A DNA stretch of 27,474 bases from positions 1 through 27,474 of IMG/VR virus record IMGVR_UViG_3300009285_003279; one strand, written 5' to 3'. How positions within the stretch are numbered: position 1 is the stretch's first letter; each line of letters opens with the position of its first letter. This stretch comes from a virus. Of this stretch, positions 3,525-27,416 are shown piece after piece. The translations under genes were made by a program, and so were the position numbers. The notes below the pieces were generated by a model. That model saw nothing but the letters and a program-made list of their open reading frames with translations. It ran no database searches and was not told the origin of the DNA.

Positions 3525-3533
3525 TTGCTCCTC

Positions 3534-12909: not shown

Positions 12910-13707
12910 TTAAGGAGCCTCGGTCCTGTTGGCGTTGGTTGCCTGATAGCCCGTCACGCAAATAACGCTTGCCGTCACCGCAAACGTGCCGGTAGATTTG
13001 AACCGGACGCCGAAATGAGTGTAACTGGCATTTGTCGCCAGCACCTGAGAAGGCCGGAACTCGATGATCCCGCTTTTCTTGATGCCTTCGCAGTAGACAC
13101 ACCCCGTCGAAGCCGAGGCGCCGATGGTCTGGATGTCGATGCCGTGTGCCTCGCCGGGTCCATAAGACTTGCGCCGAATCCTGAGGGATGCTTCCGAAGA
13201 CGAATCCGCCGCCGTGGTGACGGTGTAGGTCTCAAGATGCGTGCAATACAGCGCAATCGCGGAGGCCAAGTCCTCGATGAGGATACTGTTTGCACTCGCG
13301 CTGATCTGCTTGTCAGACATCGTTGCGGCCTCTTTGATCAAGAACGTCGTTCCATCGATGATGATGGTTCGGCTTGCCGCCTTCTGGGCGGTCGCACCCG
13401 CCCCCGCCACAACACGAACGGTCTCCCATTCGTTGAACACAAGGGCCGTTGCCTCTCCGAGTCCGATCCCGGCACTTGTCAGGGCGGTGAAGGATGAGAC
13501 TCCCTGCCCCGCCGTACCGCATACGATGGTAAATGATGCGGGCGCTGCGGTGAAGGTTTTGGCCGTTGCCAGGTCGCCGAGAATCCCGCAATGAACGGTT
13601 ACTCTCGACACGTCACGCAGCGCGATGGGTTCCGAGTCGGCTGACGAGACCGCAGCCCCGATGATCGCCTGCGTGAGTTTCGCGTGTTCTCCAATAAATT
13701 TACTCAT
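12910..13707 (-). CDS. capsid-associated structural protein, unknown family (265 aa)
   Basis: This gene directly follows the major capsid gene (19-base gap with a GGAGG site). The N-terminus MSKFIGEHAKLTQAIIGAAVSSADSEPIAL leads to a long beta-rich protein with no membrane segment. Repeated short strands (VTVHCGILGDL, FTIVCGTAG, VRVVAG, TIIIDGTTF, YTVTTAADSSSEASLRIRR, SVICVTGYQ) suggest at least two beta domains. It has the size and position of a head decoration or fibre protein. It could also be a minor capsid component. No family is recognised. Confidence 0.6.
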   Translation of the reverse strand: MSKFIGEHAKLTQAIIGAAVSSADSEPIALRDVSRVTVHCGILGDLATAKTFTAAPASFTIVCGTAGQGVSSFTALTSAGIGLGEATALVFNEWETVRVVAGAGATAQKAASRTIIIDGTTFLIKEAATMSDKQISASANSILIEDLASAIALYCTHLETYTVTTAADSSSEASLRIRRKSYGPGEAHGIDIQTIGASASTGCVYCEGIKKSGIIEFRPSQVLATNASYTHFGVRFKSTGTFAVTASVICVTGYQATNANRTEAP

Positions 13708-15061: not shown

Positions 15062-15670
15062 TTATAATCTTCGTAAATTAAATTCCCGACGAAGCAATGA
15101 TGCCCGCAGTCCAGCAGGGATCGAGGCCCTTCGCTGTGCGATAGCCCATGCCTCACGGGAATGCAGGGAAACGTCCGTCTGGGCGTAAAACGGGAACGTG
15201 ACCGGAGAGACGTCCCAGAGTTTGACCTCTTCCAAAGTAAACAGGTCCAGTTCCCCGCCCTCGCCCTTCAGCCGTGACTCTTTTTGAATCTCAAACCCGA
15301 AGGACATCTGCGAAATGTCTCCCCTGGCAATGCTTATTTTCAGGTCCCGCGCAAATTGCGTGTCCGGCGGGTCCACCTCTATCCAGAGGCCCTTGTCATC
15401 CTCACGCATGACCAACGTGCCCGCCTTATTGCGGCCAAGCACAAAGTTCGGATCATGGTTGAACAATGCCCGAACATCGTCCTGCTGAATGGATTTTGAA
15501 AATGCACCCGCCGCGATCTTCTCCCTGAACCAACCGCCGTCGCCTATGGTGTCGAACACCGCCGCATGGCCAACAATCTTTTCCGGCTGGTCGGCTTCGC
15601 GCCTCTCGATTGCAAGGCTGTCAACGGCGAAGGTTCGACGCTCCATTTTCGCTTTCTCTCGTTCAGGCAT
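15062..15670 (-). CDS. prohead maturation protease (HK97 gp4-like, S78)
   Basis: The 202-residue protein contains the family pattern GHAAVFDTIGDGGWFREKIAAGAF near residues 34-57, LFNHD at 69-73 with the predicted catalytic His72, and DISQMSFGFEI at 118-128 with Ser120/Ser123 as candidate nucleophile. The later KLWDVSPVTFPFYAQT is the standard E-V-S-V-V-T-x-P-A-Y motif. It cleaves the delta domain of the capsid protein during maturation. The start at 15670 overlaps the portal stop by 8 bases; an internal ATG at 15646 is an alternative with a weaker site. The C-terminus is arginine-rich. Confidence 0.93.
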   Translation of the reverse strand: MPEREKAKMERRTFAVDSLAIERREADQPEKIVGHAAVFDTIGDGGWFREKIAAGAFSKSIQQDDVRALFNHDPNFVLGRNKAGTLVMREDDKGLWIEVDPPDTQFARDLKISIARGDISQMSFGFEIQKESRLKGEGGELDLFTLEEVKLWDVSPVTFPFYAQTDVSLHSREAWAIAQRRASIPAGLRASLLRREFNLRRL

Positions 15671-16955
15671 TGTCTTTGTCTCCTTTGGGCTTAATCAGTG
15701 GTTCTTCCTTCTTCGGCTCCGGTTTCTTCCCGGCTTCTGTCATATTCATCGGCTCCAGATAGATTTCCCCTTTTCCATTGGGCAGCGGGTTAAGGTTTTC
15801 CTTCGCCCGGATTTCATCAACATTCATCCATCCCCACTGCCGGGCCGTGGCGAATGCCTGGTTGCGCCCCGCTGTGTCGCCCCTCAACAGGCCGTCAAGG
15901 TTGAACTCAAAGAAATACCGGACCCGCTCCCGGTCGTTCAGCAGGTAACGGTTCATGGACTGTTCAAGGCGCACGCACCAGGGCCGGATAGTGAACATCA
16001 CAAAGGCGAGGAAAAGCTGTTCCGCCGAGGCAAATGTCATGGTGTTTGTCGGATGCCCGATCATGATGGGCGGGACGCGGAAGATTCGGGCGATCTCCTC
16101 AATCTGAAATTGCCTCGACTCAAGGAACTGATTGTCCTCGTTGGACATCCCGATTTTGACCAGCTCCCCGCCGTTCTCGGTTATGATCGACTTGAATTTG
16201 TTTTCAGGTTTGGCGTATTCGGCGAGGCTTTCCTTGAGGAACGTCCGCGCATTTTCTGACAGCACCACCCCGGCGGGGAACTTCGCGTTCAGGCCGACGG
16301 ATGCCATGTTGCTGAAAAAACGGCCACCATAGTCATCCGCCGCAAGGGATAACCCGACGGATTCACGGGCAACAGAGATAGGGGAGACTCCCCGCAAGCC
16401 TTCCGGGGTCGATCCGTTATATGTGCAACTGATCGGCATATTCTTCGTATGCCAAATCTTTTCAGCGTCAAAAACCTCCTCTTTGTTATCTTCATGCTTG
16501 TATTTATAGACAATCTTCCCGTCGACCCGCTCGACTTCCATGCCGATAGGTCTCAGCGGGATCAATTCCTTAATTTTCCCCGATCCGGTAAAGACTTTTT
16601 CGTTATAGGAATCCCCCCTCAAGGCGATATGGGCGACAAGCCCTTCCCGCCATTCAAACGAGGTCATATAGTCATTGGGGGCATCATGCAGCAGGGAGTA
16701 GAGAGAGTGCTTGTAGGCGTGTTTTTTGCCTTCCCCGTCACGCTCATAGAGCATCAGAGGCAGGGAGGCGATAGTCTCCGCCAAGACCTTGACGCACGCA
16801 TAAACGGCGGAAACCCTTAACGCGGAGTCCGCCGTGACGTTTGAACCTGAGGCAGTTTTGCCGCCGACTATTCGGGCAAGCCAATGGTTAGGATCGGAGA
16901 TACCACGAATTAAGATTGCGTCTTTTATGTTGCGAAGTCTTGACCCAAAGGACAT
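15663..16955 (-). CDS. portal protein (HK97 gp3-like)
   Basis: The 430-residue protein has the HK97 portal layout: VTADSALRVSAVYACVKVLAETIASLPL at about 40-67, HSLYSLLHDAPNDYMTSFEWREG at about 82-105, and MPISCTYNGSTPEGLRGVSPISVARES in the middle. These are followed by FQIEEIARIFRVPPIMIGHP, TFASAEQLFLAFVMFTIRPWCVRLEQSMNRYLL and the terminal LNPLPNGKGEIYLEP. Twelve copies form the vertex through which DNA is packaged. In relatives it directly follows terL; here 8 kb intervenes. AAGGAG lies 8 bases before the ATG. The N-terminal ILIRGISDPNHWLARIVGG region is ordinary for the family. Confidence 0.95.
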   Translation of the reverse strand: MSFGSRLRNIKDAILIRGISDPNHWLARIVGGKTASGSNVTADSALRVSAVYACVKVLAETIASLPLMLYERDGEGKKHAYKHSLYSLLHDAPNDYMTSFEWREGLVAHIALRGDSYNEKVFTGSGKIKELIPLRPIGMEVERVDGKIVYKYKHEDNKEEVFDAEKIWHTKNMPISCTYNGSTPEGLRGVSPISVARESVGLSLAADDYGGRFFSNMASVGLNAKFPAGVVLSENARTFLKESLAEYAKPENKFKSIITENGGELVKIGMSNEDNQFLESRQFQIEEIARIFRVPPIMIGHPTNTMTFASAEQLFLAFVMFTIRPWCVRLEQSMNRYLLNDRERVRYFFEFNLDGLLRGDTAGRNQAFATARQWGWMNVDEIRAKENLNPLPNGKGEIYLEPMNMTEAGKKPEPKKEEPLIKPKGDKDNA

Positions 16956-17046: not shown

Positions 17047-17223
17047 TCATGAAGACATTATCTGTAATCTCCACGAATCAACCATCTTTTTATCTATAAC
17101 CGGATGTCCTGCTGGGTCTTTTTGAACAGGAAGAGACCTATCCTTTAGGTAGCGTATAGCCGTTTTTTCACTGACCCGCAAATAAATGGCGATCTCCTTC
17201 CACCCCACGAGGATGCTTTCCAT
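17047..17223 (-). CDS. small HTH (MerR/excisionase-like) DNA-binding protein (58 aa)
   Basis: The frame begins ATG at 17223 with AGGAGG 5 bases upstream and ends TGA at 17047, giving 58 residues. Residues 6-26 (VGWKEIAIYLRVSEKTAIRY) form a helix-turn-helix of the kind that opens MerR-like and excisionase-like proteins: W-K-E-I-A-x-h-L-x-V-S-x-x-T-A-x-R-Y. A short wing follows, with LPVQKDPAGHPVIDKKMVDSW matching the usual P-x-x-x-x-x-G-x-h-x-h-x-x-x-x-h-x-x-W. It is the last gene of the inserted cassette before the portal. It may regulate late or cassette transcription, or recognise DNA ends during packaging. The call as a gene is supported by the motif and the strong ribosome site. Confidence 0.75.
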   Translation of the reverse strand: MESILVGWKEIAIYLRVSEKTAIRYLKDRSLPVQKDPAGHPVIDKKMVDSWRLQIMSS

Positions 17224-17236
17224 CTATACCTCCTTT

Positions 17237-17749
17237 TCAGCGTAGCGTTTTGTTCAGTTTTGGCTGGTAAAGATCGATCATCTCAACTTCCTGAAGATCG
17301 AGATACATAGCCGGAACGTTCATATAAAATACCCGGTCGAAATCCTTCAAGGTAATGTGTGTTCCAAGCCTACTCGAAAGGTTTATAGATTTTCCGATGT
17401 AAACTACCTCATCGTTTTTGCATAGAAAGTATATACATGGACCCGAGGGGGCAAGAAATATTTCGTTTACCGGAAGTGATTCAATCGAAGCGGGGACCGA
17501 TCTGTTTTCGTAAACGTATATGATTTTTGGTCGCAGATACTTGCGGACCGCTGACTTTACCCCATGTTCTATATCGTCCATGACAATTTCATCAACGGCG
17601 GCCCTTATTTTTTTCGTCATCCTGTCTCTATATTTGAAATCCGATAACATAGATTCGATGATGCGATGGATCTTTAGCCCCACCTTATCATCCAATAATT
17701 TTTCCGCCTGTTTCATTACTATCGCTTCAAGTTCAATTTTTTCGGTCAT
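17237..17749 (-). CDS. GIY-YIG domain protein
   Basis: Residues about 100-168 carry a GIY-YIG nuclease domain: PCIYFLCKNDEVVYIGKSINLSSRLGTHI with Ile106-Tyr107, Tyr117-Ile-Gly119 and Arg127. Glu156 lies in EVEMIDLYQPKLN, followed by the conserved P-x-x-N near Asn166. These are the expected catalytic residues, with the first motif changed from GIY to CIY. Residues 1-95 are helical and charged, possibly a DNA-binding or dimerisation part. The gene sits at the edge of the sugar cassette, overlaps the upstream Rossmann gene by 17 bases, and is AT-richer than the virion genes. It may be a free-standing homing endonuclease or a nuclease used by the phage. Confidence 0.85.
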   Translation of the reverse strand: MTEKIELEAIVMKQAEKLLDDKVGLKIHRIIESMLSDFKYRDRMTKKIRAAVDEIVMDDIEHGVKSAVRKYLRPKIIYVYENRSVPASIESLPVNEIFLAPSGPCIYFLCKNDEVVYIGKSINLSSRLGTHITLKDFDRVFYMNVPAMYLDLQEVEMIDLYQPKLNKTLR

Positions 17750-18404
17750 TCATCACCCCCGCACAAAGATAATCGCTTATTTTTTGCTGAATTGCCGTCA
17801 GGATTATTTCCGATACCTCCCTTGTCGCCGCGCCGTGTAAAAGGTAAATGAGGTCATAGTTTTCTTTATAGGCATAAGCATAATCGGCCTTTAACAGCCC
17901 CGATGTGCCGTGAATAAAAACCTTGATCCCCATTCCTTTTGCAAGACCAATCAGATATTCGACCGACGGCCGCTGGTAATAATATTCGTTACCGGCAAGG
18001 GCGACACCAAAAAAACCTATTTCGTCCGCGCCCTCCTCGATTGCAAGGGCAACCATCCATGCAAGAGAACAGCCGAAATATCCCCCATATTTCTTCATTA
18101 TTTCCCGGAAGGGAAACACCACAGACTGTTTAACTCTCCCGTATTTCCGGCGCATATAGACTGGAATTTTCAGGCCGTTGAGTTCTTTTAGGTATCGGTT
18201 TATTCCTATTCCCCCGAACGTCGACAAGCCCCGCCGTGAGAATATACCCCCCTGGCACGAAAATTCGTGAATCTCAAACCACCGCGAAAACCTCACGGCC
18301 GGAAAGCTCTTGTAAAGATTATTGACACTCCATAAATCCCACTTCTTTTCATATCTTTGCAATTCCGCTTGACTTATCGCCGCTCCAACGATTCCGATTT
18401 TCAT
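17733..18404 (-). CDS. Rossmann-type protein, possible glycosyltransferase
   Basis: The 223-residue protein matches the core of the gene product at 12057-12884: KIGIVGAAIS at 2-10, LWSVNNLY at 24-31, RWFEIHEF at 41-48, PVYMRRK at 81-87, SLAWMVALAIEEGADEIGFFGVAL around 113-136, YYQRPSVEYLIG at 142-153 and GMGIKVFIHG at 157-166. It lacks that paralogue's coiled-coil tail. The arrangement resembles MptE-like (DUF115)/GT42 transferases. It is translationally linked to FkbM (ATG at 18404 shares a base with the FkbM stop region) and lies in the same run as the CMP-sugar genes. It is therefore the best candidate for the sugar transferase of the cassette. I cannot see defined catalytic residues, and related proteins occur in phages without sugar genes. 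Confidence 0.7.
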   Translation of the reverse strand: MKIGIVGAAISQAELQRYEKKWDLWSVNNLYKSFPAVRFSRWFEIHEFSCQGGIFSRRGLSTFGGIGINRYLKELNGLKIPVYMRRKYGRVKQSVVFPFREIMKKYGGYFGCSLAWMVALAIEEGADEIGFFGVALAGNEYYYQRPSVEYLIGLAKGMGIKVFIHGTSGLLKADYAYAYKENYDLIYLLHGAATREVSEIILTAIQQKISDYLCAGVMNDRKN

Positions 18405-19108
18405 TATGGGTGCCTCATGAAAACGATGTTCTCAGCGTCTATGCCTTCAGCGGCCCTTCTCTCGCGGCTGTGGGGCGTCATGGTATTGAAACGATTATCC
18501 GTTGTAAACCCGGCTTTCAGCATAATCTCCATGATCGGCTCTTTGCTGGCCTTTGATACTTCAATCAGGGCGGACTTGATAACCGGGAGCGTTTTCATCA
18601 TCCCCTTGACGACCTCAAGCTCCTGCCCGTCGATGTCGATTTTGATGTGTGTTGGATTGGGAAAATCGAAGATATGTTGACCGTGATACTCATATTCACG
18701 CAGATAGTCGATCCCGCACATTAGAATATCTTCGCCAACTTTTCCTACCTGTCCCCCCGAATACCCAGACTCATTTCTTTCTGTATAGAATTTAGCTACG
18801 CTGGTGGGTTGGCTTCCAACTGCCATCCACACGGAAAAGATTGAACGAAATCCATTGATCCTAACGTTATCAGTGAAGCTGTCAAAATTACCGGGCATCG
18901 GTTCAAACGCATAGATAGATATCTCCGGAAACAGGCTGGCCGCATACAACGAATACACCCCCACGTTCGCGCCCACGTCAAAGAAGACATCATGGGGGGA
19001 GAAGGATTCGATCCACGCGATAGTCTCCGGCTCCTTCGTCCAAAAAGTCTCCGCTCGATATTTTTCCATCGGTGTTTCTGTGCGCATCTTGAAGGGTAAG
19101 GGCTTCAT
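18404..19108 (-). CDS. FkbM-family SAM-dependent methyltransferase
   Basis: The 234-residue protein shows VFFDVGANVGVYSLYAA at 41-57 (SAM-binding motif I, D44-V-G-A-N-V-G50), IYAFEPMPGNFDSF at 65-78 (E69 for the SAM ribose), and HIKIDIDGQELEVVKGM at 154-170, the FkbM-specific K-I-D-x-x-G-x-E motif. ALIEVSKAS follows. FkbM-type enzymes methylate hydroxyls on sugars and natural products. The start overlaps the upstream 61-aa gene by ATGA. In this setting it may O-methylate the sugar product or glycan, protecting it from cleavage or recognition. The exact substrate cannot be read from sequence. Confidence 0.92.
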   Translation of the reverse strand: MKPLPFKMRTETPMEKYRAETFWTKEPETIAWIESFSPHDVFFDVGANVGVYSLYAASLFPEISIYAFEPMPGNFDSFTDNVRINGFRSIFSVWMAVGSQPTSVAKFYTERNESGYSGGQVGKVGEDILMCGIDYLREYEYHGQHIFDFPNPTHIKIDIDGQELEVVKGMMKTLPVIKSALIEVSKASKEPIMEIMLKAGFTTDNRFNTMTPHSRERRAAEGIDAENIVFMRHP

Positions 19109-19290
19109 AATTGCCCCCTTATTACAATCAACTCATTGAGGCAATTCGCTATGATCACTTTATAGGGATGAATAAAATCATCGGCTCCCCAGCATTGATC
19201 GATCACAATCTTCCCTAAGTGCATAATAGCACTTTGCACATCTTCCTTAGCTTTTTCTATATGTTCCGTCGCTTCGGTGTTGACGCTCAT
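19105..19290 (-). CDS. small helical protein of unknown function (61 aa)
   Basis: The start at 19290 forms an ATGA overlap with the transketolase stop, and GGAGG plus GAGGAG lie just upstream. The product (MSVNTEATEHIEKAKEDVQS...) is mostly helical, with acidic and basic residues alternating in its first half and a hydrophobic second half (AIMHLGKIVIDQCW, VIIANCLNELIVI). There is no membrane segment or known motif. It is coupled on both sides, so it is translated with transketolase and FkbM. It may be a small accessory protein. Confidence 0.55.
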   Translation of the reverse strand: MSVNTEATEHIEKAKEDVQSAIMHLGKIVIDQCWGADDFIHPYKVIIANCLNELIVIRGQL

Positions 19291-20549
19291 CTCCTCATTC
19301 CCTCCATTTCCCAGCATCGGATTGACACATAGACCGGCCCCGTGGCCTCATTGACCGCCCACTCCATCGCCGCCCGGAGCTGATCCGGCGTTTCAGGCAC
19401 AAGGACGGTCATCCCCGGCATGGTTTTCATCAGCGCGATATCTTCAAGGCACTCGTGAGACGTTCCCGGCCCCGTGGGGAGCATCCCGGCCATTGCCCCG
19501 ACAAAAACGATATGCCGCCGTTCGAGACAGGCGTTGTAGATTTGCTCGTTTGCCCGCCGACAGAGGAAAGCCGCGAAGGAATGGACGATGGGGACGAATC
19601 CCCCCGCCGACAGCCCCGTCGCCATGCTCACCTCATCTTGTTCGGCTATGCCGCATTGAATGAAGCGCTCCGGGAAGGCTGTCTTGAAGGCGGCCAGCCC
19701 GCAGTCCGGCTCAAGGTCGGCGTCCATGACCACGACACGCGGGTTTGCGCCAACGTCCACGAGGATGTCCGGGTAAGCTTTTGCAAGCTCATGGACCGGG
19801 CAGGGGCGGGGATAGGGTTGTTTTTCGGTTTCCTGTATCCCTACAAAAGGAATCCGTTCCCGTATCTCATGGACAGCCCGTCCATATAGGCCAGGGGCAA
19901 GGTCGCCTGCGTGATAAGCGTTGTTGCCCTCCATGAAGGAAATACCGGACCCTTTCGTGGTCTTGTGGATGATCCACTCAGGCGGGAACTTGAAGCGGTT
20001 ATTGAATCCCAACGCATTCGATAGTTGGAATCCGTTGTAATCGAAATGGACGATCACCCGCGAGTCCAGCCGTTGAAGCGCCTCCCAATTCTGCCCCTCT
20101 TGCAGCTCCCCGTCACCAACAAGGACGTGAATCTTCCGCTTGATGCCCTTCATCCGATCCGCCGCCGCGAGTCCGTTGGCCTTTGAAATCCCCATGCCAA
20201 GCGATCCGGTGTTGAACATGATCCCCGGAACGTCAATAGTCGGATGTCCGGGCAGTCCTCCGGGTCGGCGAAAGGTATGGATGCTGTCAAACGGGATGAT
20301 CCCCTTCGCCTGAAGGATGGCATAGAGGGCGGGAGCGTCATGGCCTTTCGATGAAATGAAGACGTCGTTCAGGCCCATGCTGCCAAAGAAAAGAGGCACC
20401 ATGATGGTCAGAGACGACAGAGAACCGCCGAGGTGGCCGCTGCCTGCGGCTTGGATCATATAAATCAGATTAAGCCGCAGCGCATCCAGCATGACGGCCT
20501 GATCCGTGATCTTATCGAGTTCCGCTTTTGGAACATAGTAGAGTTTCAT
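19287..20549 (-). CDS. compact transketolase (TPP and Pyr domains, no C-terminal domain)
   Basis: Residues 30-230 form the TPP-binding domain: GHLGGSLS at 38-45, SKGHDAPALYA at 67-77, PGHPT at 100-104, and GDGELQEGQNWEA at 145-157 with a downstream N172. Residues 250-415 form the pyrimidine-binding domain, with RFIQCGIAEQDEVSMATGLSAGG containing the catalytic Glu303 and TSHECLEDIALM at 364-374. Usual transketolases are about 620-670 residues with a third domain, or are split in two genes; this 420-residue chain joins N and Pyr parts and omits the third domain. The key catalytic residues are present, so two-carbon transfer is plausible. Neighbouring NeuB, SDR and CMP-transferase genes suggest it supplies a sugar precursor. 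It overlaps both neighbours by 4 bases. Confidence 0.9.
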   Translation of the reverse strand: MKLYYVPKAELDKITDQAVMLDALRLNLIYMIQAAGSGHLGGSLSSLTIMVPLFFGSMGLNDVFISSKGHDAPALYAILQAKGIIPFDSIHTFRRPGGLPGHPTIDVPGIMFNTGSLGMGISKANGLAAADRMKGIKRKIHVLVGDGELQEGQNWEALQRLDSRVIVHFDYNGFQLSNALGFNNRFKFPPEWIIHKTTKGSGISFMEGNNAYHAGDLAPGLYGRAVHEIRERIPFVGIQETEKQPYPRPCPVHELAKAYPDILVDVGANPRVVVMDADLEPDCGLAAFKTAFPERFIQCGIAEQDEVSMATGLSAGGFVPIVHSFAAFLCRRANEQIYNACLERRHIVFVGAMAGMLPTGPGTSHECLEDIALMKTMPGMTVLVPETPDQLRAAMEWAVNEATGPVYVSIRCWEMEGMRR

Positions 20550-21478
20550 CGTGTTTTCACCTCATAATCTTTCATTACAACCCCGTCTTTATTTTGCCCT
20601 CTAACGTGGGGTTGCCACCAATAAAGTCCGGTATAGTGTCCAAACAGGGGATGCTCCGCCGTGTATTCCTTGAAGTGGCCCCGGCATAAGTGGACACGGT
20701 TATGGGATAACGGTTCTGTTGATTCGTGGTATCCGCGTTTTTTGGAGGGAACGACTACGTTCAAAACGTGATAGTCAAAAAGCTCTTGTTTGCCTGCCTT
20801 GCGGCGTTGCTTATTTAAGACGGGCGGAGCTAACACTTTTTCGGCCTGGATATTTTTACAATTCAATAATCTCAGTGTAGTATAAATCGTAGTTAAATCT
20901 CCCCGGTCTTCGTCTACCTGTGCTTCCCATCCTGATTGGGATGAAAACCGGTTATCATTTATATTAGGGCAGGGAATAACTCCGCATCGGTTATGGATTT
21001 TTTCTGGATACCTTCCCATGCTAATTTTCTCGAATCTTTCTCCTAATGATTTTGGCGCACCTACATTGCAATAGTATGATGCATTCCCTATCATCCATGT
21101 TTTAGTTACTCCATGAAACCAAAAAAAGAATATATTGATAAAATCATAGGGTAATGAGGTTATTAGAGCTGCTCTTTTATTTGTCGGCCAGAGGAATACA
21201 TTATCAATCATTTCTGCCTTATCTCCGTCGCGGGCCCTAGTATAATCAACCCACATTTTGGGATAAGGAAGTTTAATTGGGTTATTGTCAATAAACATCT
21301 GCTGCCCGAATAATGATTTCGATAACTGTATCATGTCATCCATCTCTCCTATATGAAATTTCTGTGTATTTCTTATCATATCGGGGAGTTTCCGGAGAAG
21401 CATATTAACAGGGTCAGTTGGTTTAAGGTTATATTGCGTGGTTTTTAAGTCCTCAATCACTTGATGCGCAAACATCAT
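20546..21478 (-). CDS. phage protein of unknown function with RGH..Y....HVRG tail (310 aa)
   Basis: The ATG at 21478 overlaps the stop of the cytidylyltransferase gene (ATGA); the adjacent ATG at 21475 is equally possible. The N-terminal two thirds are mixed alpha/beta with aromatic segments (PYDFINIFFFWFHGVTKTW). The C-terminal part carries YHVLNVVVP, RVHLCRGHFKEYT and GLYWWQPHVRG. I recall similar C-terminal H-x-C-R-G-H-x-x-x-Y ... W-W-x-P-H-x-R-G arrangements in unrelated tailed-phage genomes, but know no function. The gene is AT-richer than the sugar genes around it, which suggests separate acquisition. Its middle position may be accidental to the sugar pathway. Confidence 0.6.
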   Translation of the reverse strand: MMFAHQVIEDLKTTQYNLKPTDPVNMLLRKLPDMIRNTQKFHIGEMDDMIQLSKSLFGQQMFIDNNPIKLPYPKMWVDYTRARDGDKAEMIDNVFLWPTNKRAALITSLPYDFINIFFFWFHGVTKTWMIGNASYYCNVGAPKSLGERFEKISMGRYPEKIHNRCGVIPCPNINDNRFSSQSGWEAQVDEDRGDLTTIYTTLRLLNCKNIQAEKVLAPPVLNKQRRKAGKQELFDYHVLNVVVPSKKRGYHESTEPLSHNRVHLCRGHFKEYTAEHPLFGHYTGLYWWQPHVRGQNKDGVVMKDYEVKTR

Positions 21479-22158
21479 TCCCTCCCCATCAGCCATTCGG
21501 CGAAAAGTAAATCTCCCGGCGTGTTCACGTCCCGCCCCTCGTTTCCTTCCGTGAAAAACGGCCTGATCCGCTGCCCTGATACATTGTTATACAGCTCAAG
21601 CGTTTTGGTCCATGCGACATGGATGCAACCGTTTTGCACATAGACGTTTCCAAGGGATTGCGTCGATAGGTCATAAGACGGGAACCCGTTGAAATCGATT
21701 TCGTCATACGGGTACATGAACACTTCGCCCACTTCCCATGATTTCAGCGGGTGCGCGGACGTGCGCTCAACCGCTCGCATGGAATCGCACGGCGTAAGGC
21801 TGAACTCCCGCATGGCCCGCTTGATTGTCTCCGCTGTCCTGAATGGGGATGTAGGCCGGAGGATCACGAAGACATCGAAACCCGGAAAGGCGTCAAGGGC
21901 GTGTTTCACCCACTCATAGTCATGCGAGGCGTCTTGACAGAGCTCGGCGGGTCTCTCGATAAACGACACCTGCATCCGCGCCGCCAGCTTCGCGCAATCA
22001 AGCCAATCCGTTGAAACGACGATCTTCTCAAATATCCCTGCATGGGCCGCCCCTTCAATCGCATATTGCAGGAGAGGCTTGCCGCCAAGCATTGCCATAT
22101 TCTTGCCGGGAATGCGTTTGCTGTTCTTTCTACAGGGGATCAGCCCAATAATCTTCAT
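21475..22158 (-). CDS. CMP-nonulosonate synthetase-like cytidylyltransferase (NeuA/LegF/PseF type)
   Basis: The 227-residue protein opens with LIPCRKNSKRIPGKNMAMLGGKPLLQYAI (residues 6-34), the nucleotide-binding P-loop-like R-x-x-S-K-R-I-P-x-K-N of CMP-sugar synthetases. KIVVSTDW at 45-52, ILRPTSPFRTAETI at 99-112 and a D125-S-M-R-A-V segment follow. The C-terminus has YVQNGCIHVAW and DVNTPGDLLFAEWLM, the usual G-x-x-Y ... D-I-N-T-P-E-D-L motif. These enzymes activate Neu5Ac, legionaminic, pseudaminic or KDN-type acids with CTP. The size matches LegF/PseF types better than long animal forms. Together with NeuB two genes upstream it defines a nonulosonic acid pathway; the exact acid is unknown. 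Confidence 0.93.
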   Translation of the reverse strand: MKIIGLIPCRKNSKRIPGKNMAMLGGKPLLQYAIEGAAHAGIFEKIVVSTDWLDCAKLAARMQVSFIERPAELCQDASHDYEWVKHALDAFPGFDVFVILRPTSPFRTAETIKRAMREFSLTPCDSMRAVERTSAHPLKSWEVGEVFMYPYDEIDFNGFPSYDLSTQSLGNVYVQNGCIHVAWTKTLELYNNVSGQRIRPFFTEGNEGRDVNTPGDLLFAEWLMGRE

Positions 22159-22397
22159 GACCCGATTCCTCCCCCCGTCGCCTTCTCTTGCTGCGGCACT
22201 CCGTAATTGAGCTGGACCGTCTGCGTGATGGCCGTTCCTTTCGGCCCCGGCTCCGCCATGGCATCCACCTTGATTGCAACGATGATATGGCCAGTCTTTT
22301 TCAGGAAGTCACCCAGCATGGCCGCAATCTTCCGCGCCGTGAGCTGGGCAACTGTTGCCGGGTCCGCTGGTGCTTGTGGTCGTTTCTTTTTCACCAT
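22155..22397 (-). CDS. small protein of unknown function (80 aa)
   Basis: AAGGAGGG lies about 9 bases before the ATG at 22397, inside the last codons of the HNH gene. The product is basic at first (MVKKKRPQAPADPAT), then has helix (VAQLTARKIAAMLGDFLKKTG), strand-like HIIVAIKVDAMAEPG, TQTVQLNYGV and a Gly-rich end. It fits a small alpha/beta protein and has no signal peptide. It overlaps the cytidylyltransferase start by 4 bases (ATGA), so it is cotranslated with it. No function can be assigned. Confidence 0.55.
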   Translation of the reverse strand: MVKKKRPQAPADPATVAQLTARKIAAMLGDFLKKTGHIIVAIKVDAMAEPGPKGTAITQTVQLNYGVPQQEKATGGGIGS

Positions 22398-23050
22398 GAC
22401 AATAACCCTCCTTCCAGATTGCTTGAATAACGATAATATCGGTGGCTATAATGAACATGGCTATGACATTTCATGCAAAGCGTGATTAGGTTTGCAGGGA
22501 CACAGTTCTTTTTGTTCGCATCTTTATGGTGAACTATAAGTTTCGCATTACTTTCTCCGCAATTTTGACACATCATATTATCCCTTTCTTTTATCGCTTC
22601 TCGTACTTCTTTCGTCCATTCCTTCTGTGGATACCCATCCTTGCGCCCACCCGTCCAGTGGGGATGTTTTTCTCCACTGATATAAAAGCTGATTAGCTTT
22701 TTCTTACATGCCATTGAACAAACCTTCGCTCGATTGTTCTTTAATACGGTCATCGGTGCATAAAATTCTTTCAAACATATAAGACATTTGACTATTTTTC
22801 CGCGCCGCATTGAACTAAATAGGCATCCTCTGCTACAAAAACGCGCATTGTCGTAGGACGGAGTAAATTCTATGCCGCAATATTCACATTTGACCGGAAC
22901 CCTATATTTCTTTTTCGATTTTCCATGACAATATTGAGAACAAAACCTTCTCATTGCCCATGATCCATCTGGTAATTTTACAGATGAATACTTAAGCGTA
23001 AAAGGATTGCCGCAATATTCGCAATTAGATAGCAAGGTAGCCTCCGTCAA
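22391..23050 (-). CDS. HNH endonuclease with N-terminal zinc-finger modules
   Basis: The N-terminal half has paired C-x-x-C and C-x3-C motifs: CEYC and CSQYC, CEYC and CSRGC, CLIC and CSMAC, three likely zinc ribbons. HPHWTGGRKDGYP and KEVREAIKERDNMMCQNCGE follow, then LIVHHKDANKKNCVPANLITLCMKCHSHVH, the HNH core with C-x-x-C, HH and N/C-x-x-C-H. It has the form of a free-standing homing endonuclease. The frame from ATG 23050 overlaps SDR by 26 bases, but TTG at 23035 has GGAGG 5 bases upstream and could be the real start (214 residues). It is AT-rich compared with SDR and NeuB. It probably entered the cassette as a mobile element and may help spread it. Confidence 0.9.
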   Translation of the reverse strand: MTEATLLSNCEYCGNPFTLKYSSVKLPDGSWAMRRFCSQYCHGKSKKKYRVPVKCEYCGIEFTPSYDNARFCSRGCLFSSMRRGKIVKCLICLKEFYAPMTVLKNNRAKVCSMACKKKLISFYISGEKHPHWTGGRKDGYPQKEWTKEVREAIKERDNMMCQNCGESNAKLIVHHKDANKKNCVPANLITLCMKCHSHVHYSHRYYRYSSNLEGGLLSW

Positions 23051-23750
23051 TCATAATGGTTTGCCCCGCAAACTCCGGGCAGGTTAAGGCAAAGACCAGC
23101 GCCGCCTTCGCCGATGCTCTCGATACCGGCCTTCCAAGAGGCACGTTTTTCAGATACTTCTCCAAGAAAACCGGGTCGAGCTTGCCGCCGTCATACGCCC
23201 CAAAACCAATGCAGCAAGCGCGGATACCGAACCGGCCATACTGTACCGTGAGACTCCGGGCGTATTGTTCAAGGGCGGCCTTGCTCAGATTATAAGCAAC
23301 GGGCTTTTGGAACGCGCCTTCATAGTTGCGATAATCCGCGCCTACCCGGCCCATAATTGACACAATCCCGACAATCACCCCGCCACCGTTTTCGATCATG
23401 GCCGGAAGAAACGCGCTGACCGTGTTCATGGCCCCGATAAGGTTGACATCGATAATCCGGCCAACATCGTTGTGGAACCTCGCAACGGAGCCGGGGGGCG
23501 AGTCTATCGCGGCATTCAAAACGACCACCGAAGGCGCTCCCTGCCCCTTGATGCACTCATATGCCGCCGCCTCGACATCCACCATCCGGCTGACATCGCA
23601 CTCAGGAAGGTCGATCTTGAACACATCCGCGCCCATTTCCACCAGCGTGTCGCACCAGACAGGACCAAGCTGGCCACCAGCCCCGGTGACGACCGCCACC
23701 TTCCCGGCCAGCGACCTGCTGTCAATCGCGCCCTGCTCCCATCCGATCAT
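23025..23750 (-). CDS. SDR-family oxidoreductase, PtmA-like
   Basis: The 241-residue protein has VAVVTGAGGQLGPVW (TGAGGQLG at 22-29, the NAD(P) site), KIDLPECDV with D47, VVVLNAAID at 76-83, S131 in IVSIMGRVG and YNLSK at 153-157, giving the Ser-Tyr-Lys triad. MIDGGYLAI ends a standard short-chain dehydrogenase/reductase. The TG-x-G-G-x-L-G form and the neighbouring NeuB and CMP-transferase genes resemble the ptmA-ptmB-neuB2 arrangement of flagellin nonulosonate clusters, from memory. It may reduce or oxidise the sugar precursor. It starts with ATGA overlap to a tiny membrane-protein frame, and its 3' end overlaps HNH. Substrate unknown. Confidence 0.92.
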   Translation of the reverse strand: MIGWEQGAIDSRSLAGKVAVVTGAGGQLGPVWCDTLVEMGADVFKIDLPECDVSRMVDVEAAAYECIKGQGAPSVVVLNAAIDSPPGSVARFHNDVGRIIDVNLIGAMNTVSAFLPAMIENGGGVIVGIVSIMGRVGADYRNYEGAFQKPVAYNLSKAALEQYARSLTVQYGRFGIRACCIGFGAYDGGKLDPVFLEKYLKNVPLGRPVSRASAKAALVFALTCPEFAGQTIMIDGGYLAI

Positions 23751-23878
23751 AAATGTCCCCCCTTCCCCTTCAATAAGTTTCTAATTTCGCTAATTTTCGC
23801 CATCGTTATCAACGCCGCAACCGTCGAAATCAATAAGAGGGCGAAGATTACCTTCAGCCAGTAAACCACTTCCGCCAT
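23747..23878 (-). CDS. hidden one-helix membrane protein overlapping NeuB 3' end (43 aa)
   Basis: From ATG at 23878 to TGA at 23747 runs a 43-codon frame in a different frame from the end of NeuB, overlapping it by 89 bases. AAGGGGGAT precedes the ATG. Residues about 6-26 (YWLKVIFALLLISTVAALIT) form a clear single membrane helix, followed by MAKISEIRNLLKGKGG, a basic C-terminal tail. Its stop overlaps the SDR start as ATGA. It bridges what would otherwise be the only 39-base gap between NeuB and SDR, and coupling of starts and stops is the rule in this operon. NeuB's last 29 residues, read over this stretch, look non-conserved. I infer a small inner-membrane protein. Confidence 0.6.
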   Translation of the reverse strand: MAEVVYWLKVIFALLLISTVAALITMAKISEIRNLLKGKGGHL

Positions 23879-24920
23879 ACATCCCCCTTTCCAAAGCCAC
23901 CCCCGTTGACAGGTCGGAAATGAGCGCCTTCCCGATGACTTCCCCTATTTCGTGCGGCTTCATCCCCCCGGCCGGAGACTTGACGCACAAATCGTCCGAT
24001 TTAATGACTGTCCCTGCCTTTAATGGCCTTATCAGATAGACACCCTTCCCCATCTTGGATATAAACCCTTGTTTTTCGATCTCAAGCGGCTGTTTTCCCC
24101 CGTTTCCCATCATATCCCGGACCCGTTTCACGTCCTCAACGGCCTGTGCAAGCCCTTTGGGCTCCAAAGAAAAGCCGTGATCCGTCCCCCTTGATGCCCG
24201 ATTCAGCGTGAAATGGACTTCAAAGATCGACGCGCCGAGCGATCGCGCAAGAATCAGCGGCAAAATTCCCGGATGATGGGAGCTGAATCCAATCAAATTC
24301 TTAGGGAAAACGGCTCGCAAAGCGCTGATTGAACGCAGATTTACAGTCAAATCCGTGTTGGGATAGGTCGAAACACAGTGCAAAAGGGAGAAATTGTCAT
24401 TGATTTTGCTGATTACCGCCACCATTTCCTCGATTTGGGGCATGGATGCCCCCCCGGTGCTGATAATCATCGGCTTGCCATACCCGGCAACGGTTCTGAC
24501 AAGAGGGATATTCGTCACGTCGCAAGAGGCTATTTTCCAGAGAGGCACGTCCAAACGGCGCAAGAACTCCGCTGATTTTTCCTCAAACGGGGTGGCAAAG
24601 AACAAAACGCCATGCTTTTCAGCCGTCGCCTTGAATCGGATGAACTCTTTCTCCCCGAACCAGTCCAAAGCCGCCCGATGCTCGCCGTATGTCCGGCCAT
24701 AGCTGAACTCGTTTTCATAGGGCCGGGCAAGGGCCGTCTTTGTGAACATGGCCGCGTTATCCCGCTTCTGCAGCTTGACTGCATCCGCGCCGCATTTTGC
24801 CGCCGCGATTATCATCTTCTCGCAAAGGTCCGGGTCGCCGTTGTGGTTTGAGCCGATTTCAGCGCAGAAAAAACAGTAGTCGTCGGTTATAACGTGTCCA
24901 GCTATTTCAAGTTTTCGCAT
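23790..24920 (-). CDS. NeuB-family nonulosonic acid synthase
   Basis: The 376-residue protein has FCAEIGSNHNGDPDLCEKMI at 18-37, DAVKLQKRD at 46-54, LHCVSTYP at 180-187, GFSSHHPG at 211-218, FEVHFTLNRASRGTDHGFSLEP at 233-254, and a C-terminal SAF/antifreeze-like domain GVYLIRPLKAGTVIKSDDL at 293-311 and GEVIGKALISDLSTGVALERG at 326-346. His215 and His236 are the expected metal ligands. Such enzymes condense an aldose (ManNAc, a bacillosamine-derived or plain sugar) with PEP to give a nine-carbon keto acid. The GTDHGFSLEP form is closer to sialate/KDN synthases than to the PseI D-S-x-F-S-L type, by memory. The first gene after terL and its small neighbour; AAGGAGGG precedes the ATG. The real domain ends near residue 347, after which the reading overlaps the small membrane ORF. 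Confidence 0.95.
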   Translation of the reverse strand: MRKLEIAGHVITDDYCFFCAEIGSNHNGDPDLCEKMIIAAAKCGADAVKLQKRDNAAMFTKTALARPYENEFSYGRTYGEHRAALDWFGEKEFIRFKATAEKHGVLFFATPFEEKSAEFLRRLDVPLWKIASCDVTNIPLVRTVAGYGKPMIISTGGASMPQIEEMVAVISKINDNFSLLHCVSTYPNTDLTVNLRSISALRAVFPKNLIGFSSHHPGILPLILARSLGASIFEVHFTLNRASRGTDHGFSLEPKGLAQAVEDVKRVRDMMGNGGKQPLEIEKQGFISKMGKGVYLIRPLKAGTVIKSDDLCVKSPAGGMKPHEIGEVIGKALISDLSTGVALERGMYGGSGLLAEGNLRPLIDFDGCGVDNDGEN

Positions 24921-24929
24921 AAGCCCTCC

Positions 24930-25097
24930 TTAACCAACACTATTTCGCGGATAAATAATCGGCATGGATTCTTTAATTTCTTTAAGCCCTGCTTCTATAT
25001 CGATCCCCCCGCACCGAATTTCTTCCAACTTATCGACGATTTCCTGCTTCATTAACTGCAACTCATAGATCAGGTTCTGTAACTGGTTCTCCGTCAT
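24930..25097 (-). CDS. small coiled-coil protein of unknown function (55 aa)
   Basis: The ATG at 25097 has GGGAGGGG 4 bases upstream; longer starts would run into terL. The product (MTENQLQNLIYELQLMKQEI...) has a heptad-like pattern from residue 5 to about 45 (L-x-x-L-I-x-E-L-x-L-M-K-x-E-I-V-D-K-L-E-E-I), likely a coiled coil, with a CGGID turn in the middle. It ends MPIIYPRNSVG. It separates terL from NeuB. It may be a packaging accessory or the first gene of the sugar cassette. Function unknown. Confidence 0.6.
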   Translation of the reverse strand: MTENQLQNLIYELQLMKQEIVDKLEEIRCGGIDIEAGLKEIKESMPIIYPRNSVG

Positions 25098-25110: not shown

Positions 25111-26946
25111 TTAGATGATCTCGAAGCCGTGCGTTTCGTATGGACTGATTTCTCCCACCGTCCGCAACATCCTATCCAGGCCAAGCAGAATTCCGATGAT
25201 CCCGTCAATCTTCCCTTGCGAGGTAGCCTTGTTTGGTGACTTCCCCCCGCCTGTTGGATTTATCTTTACGCTTACATTGTCGGCCATCCATCTAAGAACC
25301 GGATTTCCGCCGTGATTGAGCTTCTTCAGCAGGAGGAGCCGTTCAAATTCCTGGCAAGGGCCGTTCATTGAAACCCACCCCATCCCGCAAGCGATTACCT
25401 TTGGATTCTTCACGTCGCCGCCTAATTCCTGGTCGAGCTTTTGTGAAAACTCATACCCTTGAAACCCCCGGTCAACCGATATGCTGTTGATGCTGAATTT
25501 GAGATTGTCGGCTACGATTTGCGCCCGGATGAAATCATAATCCATTGCATCGCCTTCTGTGGTAAGGAGAAACCCCTGCTTCTGCCAACCCTGATATTGA
25601 TCCCGATATTTGTTTTTCGTGTCAAACAGGCGAGCTTCCGGGCACCATACCCGGATTAAAATGTCGATCAGGTCTTTGTCTTGAAGATCCGGGAAGAGCA
25701 TCACCCATATTGTCAGGTCGGAAACGGCGGAAAGATCGATCCCGCCATAACAGGGACGGCCGGCAAGAAGCTCCTCCGTCACCGGACGGATATTATTCCG
25801 ATCCCAAAGAGCAAGATCGATCCATCTGTTTTCTTGCTGGGTCCAGACATTTAGGCGCTTTGTCAGGAAATTGTTTTGGGCCGAAGGCATCTGTTTGGCG
25901 ATCCGGGCCTTATCTCTCATATCCTCGATCTTTGTCATGTATCCCGGTATCGGATTCCCCTTCCCGTCTATACCGAACCGCTTTCCGCTTTCCGTGATCC
26001 CGATCAGCCCCGGCGCCGCCTTTACCCAGCAATCCTCGTTTGTCCAGTCATCTTCGGCCTGTTCGCCTGATTTGACTTCCTCCTTCCGCTCCTTGAGGTC
26101 CGGCCAATCCTTTTTTGTGTCCAGGGTGTAGATGATCCCGAAGAATGAGTCGTCTTGAACTGTTCCCTTAAGAATTTGCGTCAGGTATTCCCGCGTTTCA
26201 TAACAGATCCCGGTCTGATTAAATCCCGCCGTGGTGATGATCAAAATCAAGGGCTGGGAGCGGGCGCCTATGGAGTCGTCTATCAAGTCATGAACTTCCC
26301 GCGTCGGATGGGCGTGCAGTTCGTCAAGGCTGGCAAAATGAGTATCGAGGCCATCAAGGGATTTTGAATCAGATGCAAGGGGTTCACACTTAGCGTTCAT
26401 TTCCGCAATCGACATATTGTGCATCTGGTATGTGACTTTTTTAGCGAATCCTGAATTGATCGTCAGGTTTCGGATATTCATCCAAACAATCCGTGCCTGA
26501 TCCTTTTTGACCGCCGCAGCGTAAATCTCAGCGCCATGCTCGCCGTCGGCGATAAAGAAATAGGCGCCAAGCCCGCCCGCGTATGTCGATTTCGCTCCCT
26601 TGCGGGCCATTTCAATATATGCCTTCCTGAATCGGCGCGTCTTGTCCTCCCGATACCACCCCATCAATACCCAGGTAATGAACATCAAGTGCGGCGCAAG
26701 GATAAACTCTTTCCCCTTATATTCCTTCCCTTTCCATAGTTTCAGGAAGGAAAAGAACTTGACGGCGTGCGCGGCCTTGCAACGGTTGAAGGAAAGCCCC
26801 CTGCTCGGCCCTTGATCTAAATCATTAAGGTGCCGCTGACAAGCCAGCTTAACAAAACGGCAAGCCATAACCTTTCCCGACAACACGCCGTCAATATAGG
26901 CATGAACCTGTTGCTCGATTTTCTTTATGTCGGCTTCCGGCATCAT
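25111..26946 (-). CDS. terL: terminase large subunit (HK97-like TerL)
   Basis: The 611-residue protein shows YIEMARKGAKSTYAGG (residues 110-125), a Walker A variant with R-K-G-A-K-S-T, IYAAAVKKDQARIVW at 141-155, and FASLDELHAHP at 204-214 (Walker B D208-E209). The nuclease part contains YGGIDLSAVSDLTIW at 400-414 with Asp404 and Asp410, ISVDRGFQGYEF with Asp492, and a terminal DGIIGILLGLDRM. It packs DNA into proheads using ATP and cuts concatemers. The start overlaps the small terminase stop (ATGATG). Its downstream neighbour would normally be the portal; here it is a sugar cassette. Confidence 0.95.
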   Translation of the reverse strand: MMPEADIKKIEQQVHAYIDGVLSGKVMACRFVKLACQRHLNDLDQGPSRGLSFNRCKAAHAVKFFSFLKLWKGKEYKGKEFILAPHLMFITWVLMGWYREDKTRRFRKAYIEMARKGAKSTYAGGLGAYFFIADGEHGAEIYAAAVKKDQARIVWMNIRNLTINSGFAKKVTYQMHNMSIAEMNAKCEPLASDSKSLDGLDTHFASLDELHAHPTREVHDLIDDSIGARSQPLILIITTAGFNQTGICYETREYLTQILKGTVQDDSFFGIIYTLDTKKDWPDLKERKEEVKSGEQAEDDWTNEDCWVKAAPGLIGITESGKRFGIDGKGNPIPGYMTKIEDMRDKARIAKQMPSAQNNFLTKRLNVWTQQENRWIDLALWDRNNIRPVTEELLAGRPCYGGIDLSAVSDLTIWVMLFPDLQDKDLIDILIRVWCPEARLFDTKNKYRDQYQGWQKQGFLLTTEGDAMDYDFIRAQIVADNLKFSINSISVDRGFQGYEFSQKLDQELGGDVKNPKVIACGMGWVSMNGPCQEFERLLLLKKLNHGGNPVLRWMADNVSVKINPTGGGKSPNKATSQGKIDGIIGILLGLDRMLRTVGEISPYETHGFEII

Positions 26947-27416
26947 CCTAAAAATGCCTCCTCTGCAGACTGTTTAGGTTTTGCCTTGAACAGCCCCGCC
27001 ATGCTGTCAGCAGTCAGGCCCCACGACTTTTCAAGCCGATAGACAGCCACTGTTAAATCCCTTGATAACTTTGAATATGCCGACTCCCGGAAACTGCTAT
27101 GCTCCTGGCCGGACTGATCAACGAACTTTGTCTCCTGGAGAAGCGAGCGATTGTTTTCATCCAGAAAACGGTTCACCTCTTCAAGCCTTGATTTCATCTT
27201 TAAGAGGACCAAAAAAGAAGGGACTGTCATCACGGTCAATTTCCCAATCTCTGAAAGCGGCGGCGCCCAAATCTTCCAATACTTCTTTTCAAGTTTCGAC
27301 AAACCAGGAGGACAACGAAGAGATGCAATCGGAACCTCATGTTCTGCCGGCAAAGGGCGCTTACCGGGATTCCCCCGGCGTGCCTTATCTTCTGATGAAA
27401 TCCTGTTCCGTCCCAT
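26943..27416 (-). CDS. terS: terminase small subunit (P27 family)
   Basis: The 157-residue protein has the P27-type layout: a basic RGNPGKRPLPAEHEVP motif near residues 14-29 (G-N-P-G-K-R-P-L is diagnostic), CPPGLSKLEKKYWKIWAPPLSEIGKLTVMTVPSF with the L-x-x-x-x-x-x-W-x-x-h-x-P-x-L pattern, and helix repeats RLEEVNRFLDEN and KLSRDLTVAVYRLEKSWGL. It recognises viral DNA for packaging. The ATG shares one base with the upstream stop (TAATG), and GGAGG lies directly before it. Its C-terminus overlaps terL. Confidence 0.93.
   Translation of the reverse strand: MGRNRISSEDKARRGNPGKRPLPAEHEVPIASLRCPPGLSKLEKKYWKIWAPPLSEIGKLTVMTVPSFLVLLKMKSRLEEVNRFLDENNRSLLQETKFVDQSGQEHSSFRESAYSKLSRDLTVAVYRLEKSWGLTADSMAGLFKAKPKQSAEEAFLG

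Follow-up and report, generated by a model that had tools for sequence, protein, structure and literature searches.

The phage genome analysed here (27,474 nucleotides of IMG/VR record IMGVR_UViG_3300009285_003279, hereafter the window) probably enables its phage to make a 3-deoxy-ulosonic acid late in infection, to activate it with CMP and to attach it to an acceptor, for which a virion protein is the most plausible candidate.

A predicted sugar-acid cassette between terL and portal

Between TerL (25111-26946) and portal (15663-16955), the minus strand carries six named genes as intact open reading frames (ORFs) that overlap or nearly touch their neighbours: a NeuB synthase, a short-chain dehydrogenase/reductase (SDR), a CMP-sugar synthetase (CMPsyn), a transketolase-like protein, an FkbM protein and a Rossmann-type protein (called Ros1; its paralogue is Ros2). 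The same six genes had been named in the first-pass annotation, and matches in Pfam, NCBIfam and PHROGs confirm NeuB, SDR, CMPsyn, transketolase and FkbM. Its description of a single coupled run holds for the overlapping or near-touching genes, but the run also contains HNH and GIY-YIG endonucleases, three small ORFs, u316 (a phage protein of 316 aa) and a 58-aa helix-turn-helix (HTH) protein. These interrupting ORFs are mostly missing in relatives, the exceptions being the HTH protein, which L004 and L005 have in similar form, and an HNH gene in L041/L042, likewise at the SDR/CMPsyn junction (L-numbers label the compared loci or contigs; L101-L180 are bacterial operon loci). As a cassette enzyme u316 was rejected: it is missing from the cassettes of relatives, and a similar ORF lies upstream of terL in L204. 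The features are as follows.

26943-27416, minus: terminase small subunit (context); phrog_83, E 4.5e-11
25111-26946, minus: TerL, upstream border of the cassette; phrog_9, E 3e-135
24930-25097, minus: small ORF, about 55 aa; no relatives found
23790-24920, minus: NeuB-family ulosonic acid synthase, TIM barrel plus SAF domain; Pfam NeuB, E 2.8e-66
23025-23750, minus: SDR; Pfam, E 2e-20, SDR motifs kept
22391-23050, minus: HNH endonuclease, probable intruder; phrog_1271, E 2.4e-25
22155-22397, minus: small ORF, 80 aa; weak relative in L023
21475-22158, minus: predicted CMP-ulosonate (sialic/pseudaminic-type) cytidylyltransferase; CTP_transf_3, E 9e-18; PseF, E 1.8e-25
20546-21496, minus: u316, 316-aa phage protein, not a cassette gene; phrog_20769, E 4.7e-27
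19287-20549, minus: miniature transketolase, TPP (N) and pyrimidine domains; Transketolase_N, E 1.6e-13; Transket_pyr, E 9.5e-27
19105-19317, minus: small ORF, 70 aa; no relatives found
18404-19108, minus: FkbM-type SAM methyltransferase; FkbM, E 1.7e-18; TIGR01444, 67.4 bits
17733-18404, minus: Ros1, GT42/CstII-like putative transferase, cassette copy; AF2 model and Foldseek
17237-17749, minus: GIY-YIG endonuclease, probable intruder; Pfam, E 6e-5; phrog_1111
17047-17223, minus: 58-aa HTH protein, adjoins portal; look-alikes in L004 and L005
15663-16955, minus: portal protein, downstream border; phrog_12, E 2e-108
15062-15670, minus: head maturation protease (context); phrog_80, E 7e-53
13727-14992, minus: major capsid protein (context; basis of the phage tree); phrog_10, E 4e-42
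12910-13707, minus: head-region protein between the capsid protein and Ros2; 37-82% identity in L099, L024 and L023
12057-12884, minus: Ros2, second GT42/CstII-like putative transferase, helical C-terminal tail; AF2 model and Foldseek

A scan of the run for promoters and terminators gave no excess over shuffled sequences, and none of the cassette's own was detected. The PHROGs search returned no match for NeuB, CMPsyn, the transketolase or Ros. Some stretches of the cassette have a G+C as low as 0.42-0.48, yet the value varies gene by gene; composition was not taken as evidence.

Predicted enzymes of synthesis and activation

Both the NeuB and the SAF domain of the synthase scored above their Pfam cut-offs, which places the protein in the NeuB superfamily, and the metal/PEP residues Glu25, Lys53, Gln55, His215, Glu234, His236 and Asp247 are invariant among 29 phage NeuBs. 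The window protein carries two substitutions, Glu134 to Asp and Arg314 to Ser. Arg314 of the SAF domain positions the N-acetyl group of the substrate (PMC6795526); it is replaced in 29/29 phage and 79/79 bacterial members, the phage residues being Ser, Ala, Thr or Ile. The loss of this arginine makes a non-N-acetylated acid the likely product. In a NeuB tree the cassette synthases form one phage clade (24 phage rows and 1 bacterial, SH-aLRT 98); L031, whose NeuB falls outside this clade and whose locus shows neither terL nor portal, was rejected as a cassette member.

CMPsyn exceeded the CTP_transf_3 cut-off (65.3 vs 22.6 bits), placing it in that superfamily, retains the Arg, Ser, Asn, Arg-Pro-Thr and Asp motifs and matches CMP-Neu5Ac synthetase in the PDB (E 4e-17). 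Its best NCBIfam model is PseF (E 1.8e-25), at 89.9 bits against an equivalog cut-off of 205.7. NeuB likewise stayed below the NCBIfam equivalog cut-offs of NnaB (250.9 vs 399.7 bits) and PseI (222.8 vs 340.3 bits). The SDR retains its Gly, Ser and Tyr-x3-Lys motifs, and the FkbM protein its SAM motif, with a TIGR01444 score above the cut-off of 37.7 bits.

The transketolase is a miniature. In six phage proteins the TPP/metal site and the catalytic His, GDG, Asn, Glu and His residues are all retained; all phage versions measure 417-433 aa, against mostly 617-672 aa for the bacterial ones. The phage chains stop after the pyrimidine domain, and no ORF for the C-terminal domain was found in the viral loci searched. 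Wherever this small enzyme was found, NeuB and CMPsyn genes formed its context, and the bacterial relatives sit in the same type of operon.

Nonulosonic-acid pathways (Neu5Ac, legionaminic, pseudaminic) use NeuB and a CMP synthetase (PMC7371886, PMC7591256), and the cassette resembles them in pairing a condensing synthase with CMP activation, followed by predicted transfer; it differs in lacking amino-sugar genes and in missing the NnaB, PseI and PseF equivalog cut-offs. Of the nonulosonic acid proposed at first pass, the NeuB-type origin stands; a nine-carbon chain is a possibility. That annotation had also offered a choice between a host-supplied intermediate and a non-amino acid; the second option is the better supported one. 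In L030 a KdsC-like phosphatase of the HAD type lies between NeuB and SDR, above the cut-off of TIGR01670 and below that of the KDN phosphatase model; the window has no HAD gene. Together with the loss of Arg314, this phosphatase favours a non-N-acetylated acid derived from a sugar phosphate. The KDN pathway, with a KDN-9-P synthase that uses Man-6-P and a HAD phosphatase, would be similar in that it turns a sugar phosphate into a non-amino acid, and HAD genes of KdsC/KDN type occur in L030 and in bacterial loci; the pathway is not known to include an SDR or a transketolase.

Ros1 and Ros2 are predicted to share the GT42 fold

The Rossmann-type protein had been noted as a possible transferase; structure prediction supports this assignment and refines it to a GT42/CstII-like fold, and a second copy, Ros2, had been missed behind the capsid genes. 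AF2 models reached pLDDT 88.5 (Ros1) and 84.4 (Ros2). In Foldseek searches of the PDB, ranks 1-7 for Ros1 were all CstII (probability 0.99-1.00, best E 5e-3) and ranks 1-12 for Ros2 were all GT42 sialyltransferases (probability 0.99-1.00, E 1.1e-4 to 1.5e-2), so that both proteins are predicted to fold like GT42 CMP-sialyltransferases, their best PDB matches including CstI, CstII and the Pasteurella enzyme. The models nevertheless differ from CstII (TM 0.36-0.48, identity 13-17%), and of the CstII residues Arg129 and His188, the alignment shows the first not at its place and the second without a clear counterpart. Given the low TM and identity values and these mismatches, transferase activity of Ros stays a prediction. 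By sequence, no GT42 family match was obtained (profile match to CstII, E 1.3), and no Ros member exceeded a Pfam cut-off, PF01973 matching weakly in 2/20 members (best E 0.0057); a match to Shiga toxin B (E 0.84) was rejected as chance. PF01973 is the family of Maf flagellin glycosyltransferases, which attach CMP-activated acids to Ser/Thr and are predicted to be cytoplasmic (PMC11339370, PMC3426422). The central domain of Maf resembles Cst-II, and KDO is among the acids that Maf uses (PMC11339370); Ros differs in being a single domain.

Ros2 was present in 15/15 contigs with the cassette and 0/19 without it (Fisher p 5e-10); the capsid-protein tree shows a single event, so this p-value does not count independent cases and gives no independent support. 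Ros also lies beside NeuB/CMPsyn genes in other phage types, in the order NeuB-CMPsyn-Ros (L068, L070) or Ros-FkbM-NeuB (L054, L069), and L284 has NeuB-CMPsyn with Ros.

The cassette marks one phage clade

That terL and portal normally touch, as had been stated, is borne out: 24 other related loci have the two genes near each other and no cassette genes there, and they adjoin in Caulobacter phage Kronos, one of the nearest isolates by capsid protein (40%), which has the same morphogenesis order and lacks the sugar genes and Ros2. TerLs with 71-78% identity occur in NeuB-free phages. The survey of related phages that had been recommended for the insertion found TerL, NeuB and portal in the same order in 21 other contigs; the cassette is thus placed between terL and portal as described, but it is not a one-off insertion. 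Misassembly or chance was rejected, the cassette recurring in independent assemblies. On the capsid-protein tree its carriers form one clade, and with dN/dS of about 0.06-0.3, resembling that of capsid genes, the cassette is under purifying selection. The proposal of a phage-encoded NeuB-type synthase, CMP activation and a transferase is supported by this selection, by the placement with late genes, by the retained catalytic residues and by conservation in relatives.

Reduced versions exist: L004 has a 59-aa SDR remnant and no CMP synthetase, L060/L064 have only NeuB and Ros2, and L204/L209 only FkbM and Ros transferase(s). Misassembly, unrelated functions and decay, named at first pass as possible refutations, mostly fail, with L004, L204 and L209 as the reduced cases.

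The L024 record carries an integrase, and this phage is probably temperate. L165, binned as a Bacteroidetes MAG, was rejected as host evidence: the contig is phage throughout and its binning is uninformative on the host. A capsid-profile prophage search of 395 genomes of Desulfosediminicola's phylum gave distant matches and no cassette genes in the short loci returned. Among 50,697 phage records no isolate with the cassette was found, the NeuB matches being one bacterial capsule contig and two uncultured/single-cell viral records, and we found no report of the cassette in the open full-text literature.

A bacterial sister operon

An operon of NeuB, SDR, aldehyde dehydrogenase (ALDH), CMPsyn and transketolase occurs in Chloroflexota, Desulfobacterota, Acidobacteriota and others (L101-L180); Desulfosediminicola flagellatus and Bosea sp. 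AAP35 are two of its carriers. Among 47 long bacterial loci, SDR was present in 35, CMPsyn in 42, transketolase in 35, ALDH in 36, FkbM in 11 and a KdsC/KDN-type HAD in 22; none of the operons read showed an amino-sugar gene. We found no description of this operon in the literature. The phage cassette is a cut-down form of this widespread operon. Both have a NeuB of one subfamily (Asp134, and Ser at position 314) with SDR, CMPsyn and transketolase as partners; in the phages ALDH is missing, the transketolase is shorter by the C domain and some 40 aa, and FkbM and Ros are additions. The Ros family is absent from the bacterial loci (0/79).

Proposed pathway and alternatives

In the pathway we propose, NeuB would condense PEP with an aldose that is probably a sugar phosphate and lacks a 2-acetamido group; building or tailoring of the carbon skeleton would fall to the SDR and the miniature transketolase; CMPsyn would use CTP to form a CMP-activated 3-deoxy-2-ulosonic acid; FkbM would O-methylate the acid; and while the late genes are expressed, Ros1, in the cassette, and Ros2, beside the capsid genes, would transfer it to an acceptor. 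The likeliest acceptor would be a virion protein whose Ser/Thr residues are glycosylated in the cytoplasm, in a Maf/flagellin-like manner, and the head-region protein at 12910-13707 is a candidate by position only. Homology and retained catalytic residues argue for the predicted steps up to CMP activation, and fold and genome linkage suggest the transfer step; what the acid is chemically, what SDR and transketolase contribute and what accepts the acid are inferences. Besides the single-event linkage and the limited resemblance of Ros to CstII, the missing ALDH of the bacterial operon and the parts missing in some relatives count against the pathway.

The main alternative keeps the same pathway and places the acid on LPS, capsule or S-layer glycan of the host's envelope, as a late or prophage-borne receptor change that would block superinfection or keep progeny off debris. 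It is in keeping with the action of CstII on lipooligosaccharide, with the frequency of FkbM genes in envelope-sugar loci and with the integrase of the probably temperate L024 phage; we regard it as possible but unlikely, since the genes lie within the late morphogenesis run with no promoters or terminators of their own detected, Ros2 directly follows the capsid genes, and the cassette has no recognisable membrane transferase, flippase or polymerase. Doubtful is a scheme in which the host supplies most steps and the phage tops up or swaps the last ones, the acid being ordinary legionaminic or pseudaminic acid: the cassette has no epimerase, dehydratase or aminotransferase, PseF is the best model for CMPsyn and some relatives retain only Ros/FkbM, but the PseF and NeuB-type cut-offs were missed, Arg314 is replaced and the bacterial operons read showed no amino-sugar genes. 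That the genes are passengers from a host capsule locus, functionless for the phage, is improbable; variable gene content, remnants as in L004 and the existence of the bacterial operon would fit, but a single phage clade with conserved gene order, dN/dS well below 1, a phage-specific miniaturised transketolase with its active site intact and the absence of Ros from all 79 bacterial loci stand against it. A role in general host metabolism such as pentose phosphates, for which transketolases among known phage metabolic genes and the generic nature of SDRs could be cited, is very improbable, as every miniature transketolase found lay in the NeuB-CMPsyn context, its bacterial kin belong to the same operon, and for NeuB and CMPsyn no other use is known.

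Implications

Transfer to a virion protein remains our preferred reading. In its fullest form, which we put forward tentatively, a tailed-phage lineage may decorate its virions with a 3-deoxy-ulosonic acid that is chemically new, carries no amino group and depends on the transketolase. The phage itself would encode the minimal pathway for this acid, and a phage-specific branch of the GT42/Maf fold would attach it. Such virions would be a phage counterpart of sialylated particles, with an unusually small transketolase-type enzyme. More broadly, the data, from an uncultured lineage with the cassette inside its capsid-gene operon, suggest that phages can 'sialylate' their own particles or the host surface. 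If so, sialic-acid-like glycosylation of virion or envelope would be a clade-defining phage trait and would hint at particle or receptor masking by such phages; the cassette would offer new CMP-ulosonate enzymes as well as small transferases, and attention would be drawn to a widespread, apparently undescribed bacterial operon whose product could now be searched for.

Gene order and insertions in the cassette

The window is a genome fragment of 27,474 bases from an IMG/VR record, in which all recognised genes lie on the minus strand. The first-pass annotation had placed six cassette genes between terL and the portal gene (NeuB, SDR, CMP-sugar synthetase (CMPsyn), transketolase-like protein (TKT), FkbM and Ros1), and gene and domain annotation agreed with it on both the genes and the borders. 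The order, 5' to 3' on the minus strand, is:

TerS
25111-26946, TerL
small ORF
NeuB
SDR
22391-23050, HNH endonuclease
small ORF
CMPsyn
20546-21496, 316-aa protein
TKT
small ORF
FkbM
17733-18404, Ros1, a Rossmann-type protein
17237-17749, GIY-YIG endonuclease
58-aa HTH protein
15663-16955, portal
protease
capsid protein
head-region protein
12057-12884, Ros2, another Rossmann-type protein
connector and tail genes, one of them encoding a protein of tape-measure size

The 316-aa protein is kin of phrog_20769 and resembles an ORF upstream of terL in the viral locus L204; it seems to have been relocated into the cassette in the window phage. Two endonucleases (HNH and GIY-YIG) lie within the cassette, and since the near-duplicate contigs L041/L042 carry an HNH gene at the same SDR/CMPsyn junction, homing endonucleases may target the cassette.

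Recurrence, descent and selection

Viral contigs were gathered by searching with NeuB and its alignment, and annotated with the window proteins and profiles derived from them. The order TerL, NeuB, portal recurred in 21 other contigs (including two near-duplicate pairs, L041/L042 and L043/L044), with SDR, CMPsyn and FkbM between TerL and portal in nearly all and TKT and Ros1 in several. NeuB was 58-66% identical to that of the window in phages with TerL identity of only 23-30%, whereas phages with TerL 71-78% identical (L006-L015) were without NeuB. Because the two identities disagree, terL was swapped while the cassette remained, or vice versa. Two cassette contigs, L023 and L024, have identical portal genes and FkbM 99.6% identical but NeuB 66% identical, a contrast which would reflect recent mosaic exchange around the cassette. 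In L018 and L020 the TerL gene is broken into two or three segments that lie about 1 kb apart, as though split by inserts (e.g. introns). In a different phage, L284, NeuB and CMPsyn lie between the protease and capsid genes, together with a Ros-type gene, apparently the same idea assembled independently.

In a NeuB tree computed by a quick method and containing some long branches, 24 cassette proteins and one bacterial entry formed a set (starred; SH-aLRT 98) beside bacterial NeuBs. In the capsid-protein tree (39 loci), a branch with support of 98 separated all 20 cassette phages from the 19 cassette-less ones. Pairwise dN/dS of the cassette genes was about 0.06-0.29, similar to capsid genes, with distant pairs carrying lower weight as they are close to saturation. 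Catalytic residues are retained in NeuB, TKT, CMPsyn, SDR and FkbM. These data point to a single origin and functional maintenance of the cassette.

The closest isolates by capsid protein are Caulobacter phages (40% identity); Kronos, the one examined, differs in having no cassette. A cassette-bearing contig binned into a Bacteroidetes MAG (L165) was dismissed as host evidence, its binning being uninformative because the contig is phage from end to end.

Ros1 and Ros2 as candidate transferases

Neither Ros protein gave a family match of meaningful score in Pfam, NCBIfam or PHROGs. Their AlphaFold2 models were good (pLDDT 88.5 for Ros1 and 84.4 for Ros2): the top 12 PDB matches of Ros2 were all GT42 sialyltransferases (CstII, CstI and one from Pasteurella, with E values from 1.1e-4 and probabilities of 0.99-1.00), and the top 7 of Ros1 were CstII. 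A Ros profile matched CstII weakly (E 1.3) at the expected place, and two Ros members weakly matched the Maf/MptE-like family. The Maf central domain resembles Cst-II, and Maf proteins move CMP-activated acids, including KDO, onto flagellin Ser/Thr (PMC11339370). CstII Arg129 is absent at the aligned place in Ros and no counterpart of His188 was located, and for this reason Ros was not placed as a GT42 member; its likeness to GT42 is one of fold and context.

Among cassette contigs that extend far enough to include its position, 15/15 had Ros2, vs 0/19 cassette-less relatives, a linkage that amounts to one evolutionary change on the capsid-protein tree. Phages of other types, in which Ros adjoins NeuB, CMPsyn or FkbM (L054, L068, L069, L070 and L284), lend some independent support. 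In the isolate Microcystis phage Mvi-Yong1342-1 (L285:5902-6705), a Ros-family protein immediately ahead of the terminase genes is labelled 'type 11 methyltransferase', probably wrongly.

Nature of the acid and the miniature transketolase

The nearest cellular NeuBs were found in 79 bacterial loci. Their operon, which is widespread in bacteria (L101-L180), comprises NeuB, SDR, aldehyde dehydrogenase, CMPsyn and TKT, often with an added KdsC-like phosphatase; our literature search found no paper describing this operon. Arg314 is reported to be the only residue of the SAF domain that extends into the active site, and to position the N-acetyl group of ManNAc (PMC6795526). It is substituted in all phage and bacterial members examined of the window-type NeuB subfamily, in nearly all of which Glu134 is replaced by Asp. 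One cassette phage, L030, encodes a KdsC-type HAD phosphatase (3398-3886) between NeuB and SDR. Taken together, the two replacements, this phosphatase and the bacterial operon suggest a non-N-acetylated acid derived from a sugar phosphate, which may be KDN-like or other and of any carbon number.

Phage TKTs are 417-433 aa long, ending after the pyrimidine domain, whereas their bacterial kin mostly have 617-672 aa; they also lack about 40 residues between the GDG and TKG motifs. All active-site residues tested are kept in the window TKT and in five others (47-76% identical to it), and the viral loci searched contained no stand-alone ORF for the C domain.

Proposed mechanism

The cassette would be transcribed late, along with the portal and capsid genes, from transcripts that run through terL; no internal promoter stood out in a promoter scan. 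NeuB would make the acid, SDR and TKT would modify it, CMPsyn would activate it, FkbM would methylate it and the putative transferases Ros1 and Ros2 would transfer it to an acceptor. How SDR and TKT act is a guess: TKT may provide or lengthen the aldose and SDR may alter the redox state. Some relatives are reduced to FkbM and Ros (L204, L209) or to NeuB and Ros2 (L060, L064), which suggests that a host is able to furnish parts of the pathway. An envelope acceptor is possible; the position next to the capsid genes favours a virion component as the acceptor of the acid.
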